Assembly: GCA_016188175.1 (NCBI GenBank)
Contig: JACPII010000107.1
Location: 1 to 34,699, forward strand
Direction: 5' to 3'
Length of the DNA: 34,699 nt
Source of the DNA: Candidatus Woesearchaeota archaeon
Lineage (GTDB): Archaea > Nanobdellota > Nanobdellia > Woesearchaeales > JACPBV01
A program made the translations under genes and the position numbers. Positions within the stretch are counted from its first letter, which is position 1. Each line of letters starts with the position of its first letter. Below the pieces are notes generated by a model, which did no database searches, had not been told where the DNA came from, and worked only from the letters and a program-made list of their open reading frames with translations. Below, piece by piece: positions 2,604 to 16,658 of the stretch.

Positions 2604-3102
2604 TATGTGCATAGCACCCTAAGGTCAAAATTCAATTTATAGGCAAAGACATTAATTATCGTAAGTGGATATCCTTGCCTATATTGGTGGACTTTAACAA
2701 GTATCATCAGATATTAAAGTCCGCGGCTATAATGATTATTATCGACGAGCGTTGCGGGGGACCGTCCTCCGTTGCGTAGCAACCGGAACGCTGGATTCTC
2801 CCTCCGTGCCGAGGCACCGGAACACTACTCTTACCCGTCCGGGAACCTCCGAAGCGGTAGCGAGGAAGTTCCAGAAATTCCGCTGAATTTCTCAGAACCT
2901 CCGAAGCGAAGCTGAGCGAGGTACCAGAAAATTCCGGGAATTTTCTCAGTACGCAGCTCCTTCTTAAGGCCAGTCGAGAATTTTGAAGCCTCCGAACGAA
3001 GTGAGGGGGTTCCAGAAATTACGCTGATTTCTCAGAGCCTCCGAACGAAGTGAGCGAGGCACAAGAAATTCCGATGAATTTCCCAGTGGTGCTATGCGCA
3101 TA
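2604..3102. repeat. Nested palindromic intergenic element: outer inverted arms 2604-2618 / 3088-3102 enclosing an array of alternating hairpins
   Basis: TATGTGCATAGCACC vs GGTGCTATGCGCATA (14/15 complementary); inside are repeated CTCCG/GAGCGAGG and CCAGAAA...TTTCTCAG hairpins. Confidence 0.8.
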
Positions 3103-7630: not shown

Positions 7631-7736
7631 TGCCTCCAAACAGAGTTGGGAGGTTCCAGAAACCTCCGGGAATTTTCTCAGCACGCAGGGCCATCATGCC
7701 CATAGTCGGGCGTTTCGAATATGCTAAACAAATACC
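7631..7736 (+). repeat. Intergenic AB hairpin composite followed by copy 1 of a 63-bp repeat
   Basis: gcctccaaacagagttgggaggttccagaaacctccgggaattttctcag, then ...cacgcagggccatcatgcccatagtcgggcgtttcgaatatgctaaacaaatacc (7674-7736), matching 16596-16658 without gaps. Confidence 0.75.
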
Positions 7737-10472: not shown

Positions 10473-10964
10473 TCAATCATTCCCCAGTGTAACTTCAATC
10501 TTCTCAACAATCTCTTTTGCCCTTTTAACGAGATTGTTCAATATCTCCTTATTAACATCTGTTTTTGTCCCATACTGGAACTCTTCTCTTAAAGATTTAG
10601 CATCCTGCAATTTCATCTGTTCCGTAGTCCTTATGAACGCCACATCTTTTATATCTAGCTCAAGGTTCTTTGTTTCAATAAGATGCTCAACCGCGCTTAT
10701 CGTACATTCATGATTTCTTGATTCGTACCCAAACATATACAAAATCGCTAGCAGTCCATGATACATTGCGTAATAAGCTTGAGAAACTGCCCAATCGTTA
10801 AAACCGCCCTTGATGTTATAATCCGTTGCTAAAAGATTGTGTTTTGCCTTTTCAATATGCTCCTTCGATTTCAAATGGTTAGCGGGGATTCTCTTAAGCC
10901 TATCCTCTTTAGATAGGCACCAATCCAACCGTGACCTATTGTTTAGCATTTTTGATAACCTCAA
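10473..10964 (-). CDS. HEPN-domain protein (candidate toxin of a HEPN/MNT pair)
   Basis: WAVSQAYYAMYHGLLAILYMFGYESRNHE is HEPN-like; overlaps the 3' end of the HTH-nucleotidyltransferase gene. Confidence 0.65.
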   Translation of the reverse strand: MRLSKMLNNRSRLDWCLSKEDRLKRIPANHLKSKEHIEKAKHNLLATDYNIKGGFNDWAVSQAYYAMYHGLLAILYMFGYESRNHECTISAVEHLIETKNLELDIKDVAFIRTTEQMKLQDAKSLREEFQYGTKTDVNKEILNNLVKRAKEIVEKIEVTLGND

Positions 10965-11526
10965 TAAATACAGATTCTCCCTTTAAGATTACCCCCTCTT
11001 TAATCAAAGATACTATCGCTTCTTTTCTATTATTTAATTCTTTGATTAAACCCTCCTTCTTAAGTATCAAGGGAACTACGGGTTTAGTTCTTATTGTTGA
11101 TACTTCTTGGCAAAAATCATGTACCTCTCGGGGTTTATCTGTAACAAATAAAACATCAACATCATTAAACTCTTTTTTTGTTAAAATTGAGCCAAATAAG
11201 ATAATCAATTCTCCTTTCTGGAATTCTTGAAGAGATTCGCTGTAAAGCTTAGCATAGCCGCGTAACAGCCTTTTTTCTTCAAGGAGCAATAACTCCCCTA
11301 TTTTAACAGCTTCAGGATTATCAAGGTTAAGGTTATAATTTACCGCATTGCCTATACGTTGAGCAGCGACTATCCTTTTTCTTTCTAGGTCTTTTAGAAT
11401 TTTAAAAGAACTCCCTACGCTGATCTTTAGATATTTAGCTATCTGATTGGCGTTATACCCATACCCCTCAATATTTCTAAGTAAAAACCTTACCAGCTTA
11501 GCAGTATTTTTTGGTATCATCTTCAT
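10936..11526 (-). CDS. HTH + minimal nucleotidyltransferase fusion (candidate antitoxin/regulator)
   Basis: N-terminal winged-HTH-like segment (NANQIAKYLKISVGSSFKILKDLERKRIV), then LIILFGSILTKKEFNDVDVLFVTD (GS...DVD). Confidence 0.7.
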   Translation of the reverse strand: MKMIPKNTAKLVRFLLRNIEGYGYNANQIAKYLKISVGSSFKILKDLERKRIVAAQRIGNAVNYNLNLDNPEAVKIGELLLLEEKRLLRGYAKLYSESLQEFQKGELIILFGSILTKKEFNDVDVLFVTDKPREVHDFCQEVSTIRTKPVVPLILKKEGLIKELNNRKEAIVSLIKEGVILKGESVFIEVIKNAKQ

Positions 11527-11674: not shown

Positions 11675-11790
11675 TGCAACCATTCCATCCGGTCTTCGAC
11701 CGTTGCCGAGGCGAACCCGAGCGCAACTAAGAAAATCCGCAGATTTTCTGTTGGTGGTTGGGGTCAGTAACTCCATCCGGAATGGTTGCA
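11675..11790. repeat. Nested palindromic element with 52-bp core module
   Basis: Outer TGCAACCATTCC (11675-11686)/GGAATGGTTGCA (11779-11790), perfect 12 bp; core 11702-11753 is 51/52 identical to 13954-14005. Confidence 0.85.
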
Positions 11791-11824
11791 TGCACGAAAA
11801 AATTCCATTGGAATTTCTGGTGCC

Positions 11825-11984
11825 CCAGAAATCCTTTGAGATTTCTCAGGGCTTAAAAATCCGACCGAGCGACCCAAGGGAGAATCCAGCGTTCCAGCCT
11901 GCGGACGGAGAGAATCCAGCGTTCCGGTTGCTTCGCAACGGAGAGCGAGCAATCCCCCCGTCTTGGACTGGGGGTGGTTGGATT
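11825..11984. repeat. Hairpin module CCAGAAATCC...ATTTCTCAG plus expanded AATCCGACC...GGTTGGATT element
   Basis: Arms as at 10297-10359, but the middle carries two gaatccagcgttcc[hairpin]ggaga units; inner CCCCCCGTC/GACtGGGGG. Confidence 0.8.
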
Positions 11985-12062
11985 TTTTTACCCATATGCA
12001 AAATCCGATGTGTTACACCAAAAACATTAGCTATTTAAAGTGGGCTCAAGAATCCTTTCTCT

Positions 12063-13922
12063 ATGTCAGCCAGTAATCTTCTTGTGGGAAAAAATCTTGA
12101 AAAATTGCAGGCCCTCAGGAACCCGAAAGTATTACGGATTGTTGAGGAATATATCAGCCTCTGCAAGCCCGCAACAGTTACCGTCCTTACGGATACAAAA
12201 GAAGACATCCAGTACATGAGAGAACGTGCATTAGGGAATGGAGAAGAATCCCCCCTCAATCTAAAAGGCCACACCATCCACTTCGATGGCGCCAAAGACC
12301 AGGCAAGGGACAAGGAAAATACTAGGGTTCTCCTTCCCAAGGGGGCGAAGGTCAGCAGTTTCATCAATGCAAAAGACCGGGATGATGGCCTCAGGGAAGT
12401 GCTTGGATTTTTAGACGGCTCCATGCAGGGAAAAGAGCTGCTCGTCTGCTTCTTCTGCCTTGGTCCGAACAACTCGAGGTTTTCGATTCCTTCATTGCAG
12501 CTTACCGATTCTGCCTATGTTGCCCATAGTGAATCCATCTTATACCGGCCGGGATATGAGGAATTCAAGCGCCTGGAAGGCTCGGAAGATTTCTTTTATT
12601 TTATCCATTCCGCCGGAGAGCTCGATGAGCGCCAGAACTCCAGGAACATCGACAAGCGGAGAGTATACATCGACCTGGAGGAAAATCGCGTCTTTACCGT
12701 CAATAACCAGTATGCGGGGAACAGTGTCGGGCTGAAGAAGCTTGCCCTGCGCCTCGCGATCAACAAGGCAAACCAGGAAGATTGGCTCTGCGAGCACATG
12801 TTCATCATGGGCGCCCATGCGCTAAATGGTAAAAGGGTCACCTATTTCACCGGTGCCTACCCGAGCGCCTGCGGGAAAACCTCGACAGCGATGCTCCCCA
12901 GCCACTCCATCATCGGAGATGATATTGCCTATCTCAAGATAGCCGGCGATGGAAGGGTGTATGCCGTCAATGTGGAGCAGGGTATTTTTGGTATCATCGC
13001 CGATGTCAACCCCGAGGACGACCCCATCATCTACCATACCTTGACAACCCCCCGGGAGCTGATTTTCTCAAATGTGCTTATCGTCGATGGAGTACCCTAT
13101 TGGCTGAACATGGGCAAGCCGATGCCTAAAGAGGGGATCGCATTTTGTGGAAAATGGGATGAAGGGATGAAGGATGCAAAAGGAAAAGCGGTCCAGCCGA
13201 CAACGGCAAACGCCCGTTACACGATCAAGATCAGTGAGCTCAAGAACGCCGACCCTCAGGCAGACAATCCGCAGGGTGTCCCGATTGGCGGATTTATCTA
13301 TGGGGGCCGTGATTCAGATACTACCGTTCCTGTCTTTGAATCCTTAAGCTGGGCTCACGGGGTCTATGTGGGGGCGATGGTTGAGTCAGAGACGACTGCC
13401 GCGGCAATTGGCCAGGTGGGCGTGCGAAGCCATAACCCCATGGCAAATCTCGATTTCCTTGTTGTTCCTTTGGGATTATACATCAAGAATCACCTTGCAT
13501 TTGGAGACAGGCTTGACCGCCAGCCAAAAATATTCCATACCAACTATTTCCTCAAGGACGAGGGGAAATTCCTCAACTCCAAGATGGACAAGCAGGTGTG
13601 GCTGTTGTGGATGGAAAGCCGTGTCCATAACGACGTTGGCGCCCTGGAAACACCTGTCGGGTTTATCCCCAAATATGAAGATTTGAAAATTCTCTTTGCA
13701 GGCGCCATGAAGAAAGAGTACTCCCGGCAGGATTACGAGCAGCAGTTCTCAATAAGGATTTCCAAACTCCTCGAGAAGATAGAACGGATGCAGAAGATAT
13801 TTGCTGCCGAAGAGGGATTGCCGGGCGTTTTCACAAGCCACCTGCAGCAGGAAAAAGCCCGCCTCGAAGGCGCAAGAAAGAATTTTGGGAAGGATGTCAT
13901 TTCTCCGTTTGAATTTTATTGA
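12063..13922 (+). CDS. pckG: Phosphoenolpyruvate carboxykinase (GTP)
   Basis: FTGAYPSACGKTSTAML kinase-1a loop, EGIFGIIADVNPEDDPII, YGGRDSDTTVPVFES, FHTNYFL. Confidence 0.92.
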   Translation: MSASNLLVGKNLEKLQALRNPKVLRIVEEYISLCKPATVTVLTDTKEDIQYMRERALGNGEESPLNLKGHTIHFDGAKDQARDKENTRVLLPKGAKVSSFINAKDRDDGLREVLGFLDGSMQGKELLVCFFCLGPNNSRFSIPSLQLTDSAYVAHSESILYRPGYEEFKRLEGSEDFFYFIHSAGELDERQNSRNIDKRRVYIDLEENRVFTVNNQYAGNSVGLKKLALRLAINKANQEDWLCEHMFIMGAHALNGKRVTYFTGAYPSACGKTSTAMLPSHSIIGDDIAYLKIAGDGRVYAVNVEQGIFGIIADVNPEDDPIIYHTLTTPRELIFSNVLIVDGVPYWLNMGKPMPKEGIAFCGKWDEGMKDAKGKAVQPTTANARYTIKISELKNADPQADNPQGVPIGGFIYGGRDSDTTVPVFESLSWAHGVYVGAMVESETTAAAIGQVGVRSHNPMANLDFLVVPLGLYIKNHLAFGDRLDRQPKIFHTNYFLKDEGKFLNSKMDKQVWLLWMESRVHNDVGALETPVGFIPKYEDLKILFAGAMKKEYSRQDYEQQFSIRISKLLEKIERMQKIFAAEEGLPGVFTSHLQQEKARLEGARKNFGKDVISPFEFY

Positions 13923-13924
13923 TT

Positions 13925-14125
13925 CCTCAAAATGGGTTCATACCCCGCAGCTTGTTGCCGAGGCGAAGCCGAGCGCAACTAAGAAAATCCGCAGATTTTC
14001 TGTTGCTGCGATTAGAAACCCATTTTGAGGTTAAAAAATACCCCGCAGCTTGTTGCGGTTGGGATTTTTTATTCCTCAAAATGGGTTCATACCCCTAAGA
14101 TTTTCTGTTGCCTCCGTTGGGATTT
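13925..14125. repeat. Nested palindromic element downstream of PEPCK with same 52-bp core and partial local duplication
   Basis: CCTCAAAATGGGTT (13925-13938)/AACCCATTTTGAGG (14017-14030), perfect 14 bp; third copy in direct orientation at 14074-14087; core 13954-14005; taccccgcagcttgttgc repeated at 13940 and 14039. Confidence 0.85.
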
Positions 14126-14238: not shown

Positions 14239-15351
14239 ATGAAAGCGGCTCTTGCGGGCATTGAGCTCCATTATCTCGTTCAGGAGTTTCAGGAATTGTT
14301 AGGGGGGCGGCTCGAGACTATCTACCAGCCTGAGCCCGATGACTTTTATTTTGTTTTTTATATCCCTTCTCGCGGGAAAAGGATAATCCGGCTCGTTATC
14401 GGCAAGTGCTGTTATCTTACGGGTGAAAAGCCAAGCGGCATTACCCCGGCACCTTTTTGCCTGTTCCTTAGGAAACACCTGGAAGGCGCAAAGCTCACCG
14501 GCATTGAGCAGCTCGAAGGGGAGCGTATCCTGAAGCTTTCTTTCGACCGTGATGGGAAAAGCTCTCTCTATGTGGAGCTGTTTGGAAAAGGAAATCTGAT
14601 ATTGTGCGATGCCCTGTCTTCCATCCGGGGGGCGCTTCACTACCAAAAATTTAAGGGCCGGGACATCGTTCCGAAGGCGAAATACCAGTACCCCCGCTTA
14701 AAGATCGATCCTTATTCCTGTTCCCCCAAGGACGTTGGGCATCTTCTGAAGGAAAGCTCCCTTTCGCTCGTCAAATCACTTGCCGCTGAGGTTGGATTAG
14801 GCGGTGTGTATGCAGAAGAGGCCTGCTTAAGGGCTGGTATCGAAAAGAATAGCCTGCCCGGGTCGCTTGTTGACGGCCAGATAAAAAAGATTGCCGCAGT
14901 GCTGAAAGAGATGACTTCAGCTCAGCTCCAGCCCCATCTCATCTGTAAGGGGCAGGAGATCCTTGCAGCTTCTCCCTTTTCACTCGAAATATTCAAAGGC
15001 GATGACAGCAAGCCTTTTCCATCATTAAGCGGGGCCATGGAAGAGTTTTTTAAGCATGCCCAGCCCGAAGTCAAGAAGCAATCCTCGAGCGAAAAAGAGC
15101 GTGACCGCTTGGTGCGCTTGCTTCTCATCCAGGAAGAAAATCTTGCAGGGCTTAAGGTAAAAGAGCAGGAAGAGCGTTCAAAAGGGGATCTGCTCTTTTC
15201 CCATTACCAGGATATCCAATCTCTCTTGCAGGAACTTCAGGGCCTTGCAAAAGAAAAAGGTTGGAAGGAAGTTGAGTCCGTTGCATCAGCAAATAAGATT
15301 GTGCGCCATATAAACCTTAAGGATAAGACTATCGCCCTTGAGCTGGATTGA
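14239..15351 (+). CDS. rqcH: NFACT-N/RqcH-NEMF-like protein, apparently without NFACT-R domain
   Basis: MKAALAGIELHYLVQEFQELLGGRLETIYQP...LFGKGNLILCD, HhH-like AEEACLRAGI, coiled coil ending KTIALELD. Internal start 14239 preferred over 14050, which lies in the repeat. Confidence 0.75.
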   Translation: MKAALAGIELHYLVQEFQELLGGRLETIYQPEPDDFYFVFYIPSRGKRIIRLVIGKCCYLTGEKPSGITPAPFCLFLRKHLEGAKLTGIEQLEGERILKLSFDRDGKSSLYVELFGKGNLILCDALSSIRGALHYQKFKGRDIVPKAKYQYPRLKIDPYSCSPKDVGHLLKESSLSLVKSLAAEVGLGGVYAEEACLRAGIEKNSLPGSLVDGQIKKIAAVLKEMTSAQLQPHLICKGQEILAASPFSLEIFKGDDSKPFPSLSGAMEEFFKHAQPEVKKQSSSEKERDRLVRLLLIQEENLAGLKVKEQEERSKGDLLFSHYQDIQSLLQELQGLAKEKGWKEVESVASANKIVRHINLKDKTIALELD

Positions 15352-16595: not shown

Positions 16596-16658
16596 TTTCT
16601 CAGTTCGCAGGACTAGTATACCCGTCGTCGGGCGTTTCGAAGATGCTAAACAAATACC
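16596..16658 (+). repeat. Copy 2 of the 63-bp intergenic repeat
   Basis: tttctcagttcgcaggactagtatacccgtcgtcgggcgtttcgaagatgctaaacaaatacc; about 53/63 identical to 7674-7736, ungapped. Confidence 0.8.

Follow-up and report, generated by a model that had tools for sequence, protein, structure and literature searches.

A double-hairpin element nested in unrelated palindromes of a Woesearchaeales genome is probably mobile

The DNA analysed here (the window, 34,699 nt) is contig C30 of G000, a Candidatus Woesearchaeota genome of 1.64 Mb that is 75% complete and divided among 119 contigs. On both sides of its PEPCK gene lies a short repeat, the core, which is probably a non-coding mobile element of 46–51 nt, made of two adjacent hairpins, that inserts into the hairpins of other intergenic repeats and is moved in trans. 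The core is inserted in at least six unrelated host palindromes, each of which also exists empty. It is the comparison of these filled and empty paralogous sites, rather than of two strains, that points to movement.

Two copies of the core in the window

The 52-mer at positions 11702–11753 recurs at 13954–14005 in the same orientation, with 51/52 nucleotides alike and a C/G exchange as the sole mismatch, as an earlier note on this DNA had described. A 25-nt piece of it has two matches in the window, against 0 expected from 100 shuffles. Copy 1, on the plus strand (69.4 bits to R1, a covariance model built from eleven copies, alignment A3), consists of hairpin 1 (11702–11727; GTTGCC-GA-GGC-GAA-CCC-GA-GCGCAAC), hairpin 2 (11730–11749; AGAAAATC-CGCA-GATTTTCT) and a final GTTG (11750–11753). 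The mismatch falls in a stem, so that copy 1 loses one base pair of hairpin 1, in GGC/CCC. In copy 2, also on the plus strand (71.0 bits), the hairpins occupy 13954–13979 and 13982–14001. At its 5' end the mobile unit is best taken to lack 1 nt of the 52-mer, which gives TTGCC...GTTG at 11703–11753 in copy 1 and 13955–14005 in copy 2, with a boundary ambiguous by 1–3 nt.

The palindromic arms around the two copies differ, again in agreement with the earlier description. Copy 1 separates the left half (11675–11702, plus strand; TGCAACCATTCC...GACCG) from the right half (11754–11790, plus strand; GTGGTTGG...GGAATGGTTGCA) of host palindrome A, whose arms are TGCAACCATTCC (11675–11686) and GGAATGGTTGCA (11779–11790). 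Copy 2 stands between the halves of host palindrome B, GATTCCTCAAAATGGGTTCATACCCCGCAGCTTG (13921–13954) and CTGCGATTAGAAACCCATTTTGAGG (14006–14030), both on the plus strand, with arms CCTCAAAATGGGTT (13925–13938) and AACCCATTTTGAGG (14017–14030). More B-type repeat modules, with a second partial B unit lacking the core, follow on the plus strand at 14031–14125. The mosaic also goes on past palindrome A, at 11793–11990, with the nested repeats AGAAATCC... and GAGAATCCAGCG..., the latter having a 34-nt inverted partner at 2767–2800, and with a larger AAAAATCCGACC / GGTTGGATTTTTT palindrome. At the contig end (49–230), a 91-bp unit is repeated in near-perfect tandem (99%), which could reflect either a genuine duplication or the assembly.

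The neighbouring genes encode a possible nucleotidyltransferase-type protein (10936–11526, minus strand), PEPCK (12063–13922) and an NFACT_N protein (about 14239–15351). From the copy density of the genome, about 1.6 pairs of cores within 2.25 kb are expected by chance, so the flanking of PEPCK by two cores 2.25 kb apart leaves nothing to explain. The core has no known tie to PEPCK, and nothing points to PEPCK mobilisation; the excision or inversion of this gene hinted at in the earlier note is thus unsupported.

Filled and empty hosts

A genome-wide search, which the earlier note had proposed for the 52-mer, showed that the core recurs: G000 has 35 copies at E<1e-6 under model R1, and a plain sequence search placed it at about two dozen sites beyond the window. 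Host A (TGCAACCATTCC...GGAATGGTTGCA) contains the core in C30, C72, C8, C34 and C71 and lacks it in G000 at C51:3600–3671, C9:25366–25437, C77:186–257 and C95:1885–1956; it is also empty, in a slightly different form, in C50 and C49. With a slash marking the junction, the empty site reads ..GGTCTTTGACCG/GTGGTTGG.. and the filled site ..GACCG/TTGCC..CGTTG/GTGGTTGG.., or, in short form, ..GACCG/GTGG.. and ..GACCG/TTGCC..CGTTG/GTGG.., respectively. Host B carries the core in C30 and C51 and lacks it at C91:21344–21448, C68:80507–80608 and C87:19440–19540, where ..CCCCGCAGCTTG/CTGCG.. (in short, ..CAGCTTG/CTGCG..) becomes ..CAGCTTG/TTGCC..TGTTG/CTGCG.. on filling; among copies of a shorter form of B, those in C56 and C23 have the core and those in C88, C75, C52 and C9 do not. 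The only unit fitting both hosts is TTGCC...GTTG, of 46–51 nt, with a slack of 1–3 nt; shifted by one nucleotide, it reads GTTGCC...GTT.

For five further contexts (D1, D2, E, C104 and C78), the unit was deleted in silico, the flanks were joined, and the genome was searched with the result. Real empty copies ran across the junction for E in C79 (99%) and in C105 and C72 (100%), for D2 in C25, C26 and C111 (98%), and for D1 in C62 and C9 (90%). The joined flanks of C104 were spanned in C96 (87%) and C119 (86%), while those of C78, the weakest of the six hosts, found a looser match in C9 (79%). The six hosts are therefore A, B, D (D1 and D2 counted as one), E, C104 and C78. The claim that the core alone is mobile is in this way borne out, since no fewer than six unrelated host repeats contain it and every one of them is also found core-free and joined at the same point.

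Insertion is mostly clean, follows a G and has one orientation relative to each host; the copies in C60 and C68, which lack part of the host right half, show that not every insertion is. The target-site duplications that the earlier note suggested inspecting were looked for in the filled/empty pairs and are absent. Duplications are visible in this genome, since in C51 a separate MITE with GTATTTGTTTAGCA ends lies within the core and is flanked by the 8-bp duplication CCGAGCGC, thereby serving as an internal control. This MITE family, represented in C51 by positions 2511–2702 of the G000 contig, has ends in the window at 7674–7736 and 16596–16658 and is common in G000 (20/228 fetched loci, a redundant set). 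In the predicted hairpin of the joined flanks, the junction falls in the 3' arm for A and E and at the 3' edge of the loop for B and D, and its place is less clear for C104; this is a small sample of junctions, taken without a random control.

The history of the core is separate from that of its host. While the C30 cores in A and B are 98% identical, the core of C30-A is only 81–87% identical to those in the same host A of C8, C34 and C71, and among complete A copies C72 alone has the C30-A core type (96%). Because C30-A is nearer to the B cores than to most A cores, segmental duplication of the core plus its arms is disfavoured, as it would not give a B-like core in host A; the shared flanks that such a simple duplication implies were not found, the flanks being those of six unrelated hosts. 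The same comparison bears on the reading in which the palindromes have long contained the core as a fixed component and the empty copies arose by replication-slippage deletion across hairpins. Hairpins are deletion-prone, and the B and D junctions have a 3–4 nt repeat (TTG/GTTG) usable for slippage, but the A junction shares 1 nt only, and it is unlikely that several copies would each have lost the core precisely at the same base. Moreover, the same core must still have entered six unrelated hosts, and we consider this deletion scenario unlikely.

Units are also stacked head to tail, twice in C91, three times in C67 and four times in G004:C150, and a 50-nt core of G000 (C91, host D) has an exact counterpart in C122 of G004, a genome from another genus. 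Mis-joining of repeats in a fragmented metagenome assembly, conceivable with 119 contigs and several core copies at contig ends, is very improbable indeed: the two copies of the window are each enclosed by intact arms that match, and units with the same ends are present in many genomes of the order that were assembled independently.

Fold of the element

The core is a non-coding double hairpin composed of a tandem G·A stem with a GNA loop, a TA linker, an A/T-rich stem and GTTG. In 65 distinct copies (from 79, in an alignment biased towards the model to which it was fitted), 16/16 stem pairs change on both sides, 98.6% of cells are paired versus 32–59% in slid controls, and 0/500 shuffles reach the observed pairing. 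Compensatory exchanges are visible by eye (GTTGC/GCAAC, GTCAC/GTGAC, GTTGAG/CTCAAC, GTTTCC/GGAAC). Conserved as well are the tandem GA on the two strands of hairpin 1 (61/65 and 57/65 copies), the GNA triloop, which is GAA, GGA, GTA or GCA (51/65), and the TA linker between the hairpins (60/65). The 3' tetranucleotide is GTNG (GTTG in 39, GTGG in 6 and GTAG in 5 of the 65 copies), and it is this tag, 3' of hairpin 2, that is unpaired, the 5' GTTG of the core being paired in the stem of hairpin 1. As DNA, GCGAAGC forms a mini-hairpin of unusual stability, a property in keeping with action on single strands; tandem G·A pairs and GNA loops are stable in RNA too, so this motif does not decide between the two.

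Strong compensatory change in the stems indicates that the fold is under selection. Together with the location of cores 3' of co-oriented genes (see below), this agrees with a core that is mainly a functional RNA or DNA module (a terminator, a stabiliser of mRNA 3' ends or a protein-binding site), spread by recombination and only incidentally mobile. Homologous recombination, however, cannot put an exact-ended unit of 49 nt into unrelated flanks, 3 of the 21 copies whose neighbours could be called lie between divergent genes, and no Rfam family reached its gathering cut-off with the core (the best, STnc490, scored 28 bits versus 56); we rate such a module as a rather unlikely account.

Two other likenesses were considered and dropped: a kink-turn, as there is no 3-nt bulge 5' of the GA, and an integron attC site (AAC...GTT, cut G^TT), as the right flank of A starts with GTGG and the required TT is missing. 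Several related structures were also seen. A divergent relative of the same architecture (GCCTCCGAACGAAGTGAGCGAGGC, with a GCCTC/GAGGC stem and an AC linker; 31.6 bits, E 5e-6) lies on the plus strand at 3037–3089 of the window; it is outside the main core family and belongs to a second double-hairpin family with weak model matches in C61, C94, C90 and C65. Loci L036 and L040 (G054) have host E-like arms around a different first hairpin (TGCATAAATTAC...GTAATTTACTGCA) and the usual second one, which suggests that the two hairpins are exchangeable. At L034 (G003:C87 75011–75067), a core-like unit has, in place of hairpin 1, a near-copy of the neighbouring sequence GTTGTTGCTGAGGAAGATATCATC, which could read VVAEEDII, as if the insertion had hit the end of a coding sequence.

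Distribution and genomic position

The distribution is patchy. Among 288 Woesearchaeales genomes, 20, from scattered families, carry the core, and G004, G157 and G177 have at least 20 copies each. A strict-pattern scan of GTDB genomes returned two contigs of one other Woesearchaeota MAG, and the closest named relative with the core is a groundwater Candidatus Woesearchaeota MAG of the same family. The same kind of scan gave no match in viral contigs and therefore no sign of a viral carrier.

The core is probably transcribed, because in 17 of the 21 cases where neighbours could be called it follows a gene of the same orientation (p 0.007), a count based on mechanical ORF calls and including copies that share a host and are not independent. 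This position is no more than suggestive: insertions may survive at 3' ends, or the hairpins may have an action there. The position would also suit an RNA route, in which a reverse transcriptase copies the transcript of the double hairpin and the copy is inserted into single-stranded hairpins; the sense-strand bias and the stability of the fold in RNA mentioned above both speak for it, but the 3' position could equally reflect selection against harmful sites, and no reverse transcriptase (PF00078) turned up in G157 (98% complete, 21 copies), G177 or G000. Spread through RNA copies has been proposed for the GC clusters of yeast mitochondria (PMC4478555).

Discussion

The core would have moved in trans as a folded single strand, by means of a Y1/HUH-type transposase or an unknown enzyme working the same way. 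The left hairpin may provide one end signal and the right hairpin plus GTTG the other, and the target would be the loop or an arm of a host palindrome. Y1-like single-strand transposition is resembled because there is no duplication, the ends are hairpins, the last tetranucleotide is fixed and the targets are hairpins. A Y1-type route is, in our estimate, a plausible one at somewhat less than an even chance and the RNA route an unlikely one, the rest falling to an unknown enzyme or process.

Y1 genes are weakly associated with the core (11/20 carriers versus 90/268 other genomes, Fisher p 0.048). No Y1_Tnp gene was found in G177 (91% complete, at least 20 copies), in G131, likewise rich in copies, or in the carriers G004 and G001, and the core model found no core in the flanks of the fetched Y1 loci, among which, in a search that was not exhaustive and of incomplete genomes, there was also no autonomous element with the end hairpins of the core. 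Such gene absences are soft, as the genomes are incomplete. Because Y1 and reverse transcriptase both fail in well-covered, copy-rich genomes, the mover is not pinned to either; the left end of the core, moreover, leaves no space for a guide and linker laid out as in IS608, which counts against a Y1-type route. In G000, locus L090 (C74) has a Y1 transposase gene, apparently frameshifted near its start, between GCGGACTTCAGTCCGC and CTGCGGGCTTTAGCCCGCAG hairpins. It is possible, though doubtful, that a lineage of double hairpins of about 49 nt has been moved in Woesearchaeales into DNA hairpins, without target duplication, by an enzyme that is neither Y1 nor a reverse transcriptase; if so, the core would be among the smallest mobile DNAs of cellular chromosomes with exact filled/empty evidence.

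The movement of tiny hairpin elements in mitochondria and bacteria has been hard to work out, in part owing to the shortness of the elements and the scarcity of known pre-insertion sites. A single genome here supplies about 35 copies, six hosts with matched empty sites, tandem arrays and a fold defined by covariation across the order, which together give a concrete basis for defining the end signals and the target rule and for seeking the enzyme. The core also accounts for part of the mosaic intergenic DNA in an uncultured group and for some of its assembly breaks.

Among known systems, MITEs are likewise non-coding, repeated and intergenic, but the core has neither the terminal inverted repeats nor the target duplications seen in the MITE of C51. 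Another kind is the miniature IS200/IS605 derivatives, which include the PATEs (palindrome-associated transposable elements) of haloarchaea. IS608 has end hairpins and inserts as a single strand without target duplication; the core shares a hairpin at each end, fixed ends and the absence of target duplication, but it is far shorter, its hairpins are directly adjacent and no matching autonomous element was found among the fetched Y1 loci.

REP sequences, the GTAG-tagged palindromes moved by Y1 transposases (RAYTs), are also short, intergenic and usually 3' of genes, with GTNG at one end. Certain REP families lie within palindromes, and T. roseum has hundreds of copies of the target in its empty state (PMC3733652). 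In REPs, however, the tag is 5' of the first hairpin, while in the core it is at the 3' foot of hairpin 2, with no unpaired GTAG/GTGG directly 5' of a hairpin; core units are head to tail rather than in inverted pairs, and no adjacent Y1 gene flanked by the repeat was found at the Y1 loci searched. In a 2018 survey, no subclass other than IS200 was found in Archaea (PMC6006769).

The structural likeness is to the double-hairpin and palindromic elements of organelles (Allomyces DHE, yeast GC clusters, Volvox palindromes and sponge RHE), which are about 50 nt long, have one or two hairpins and are intergenic, sporadic and often nested. Volvox palindromes are inserted in one another (PMC2670323), yeast GC clusters form mergers (PMC4478555), and the sponge RHE is among the nested elements (PMC2800124). 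With two adjacent hairpins in about 50 nt, dispersed and nested in palindromes, the core falls into this structural class. In contrast to the organelle elements, it is in an archaeal chromosome, has a two-hairpin fold that covaries across an order and exact filled/empty pairs in six hosts, and lacks a target duplication, which in yeast clusters is AG/ACT. Searches of the open-access literature yielded no report of like repeats in Woesearchaeota or DPANN. Nested hairpin elements are known from organelles and, as REPs, from a few bacteria; what is new is an archaeal variant with unusually clean evidence.
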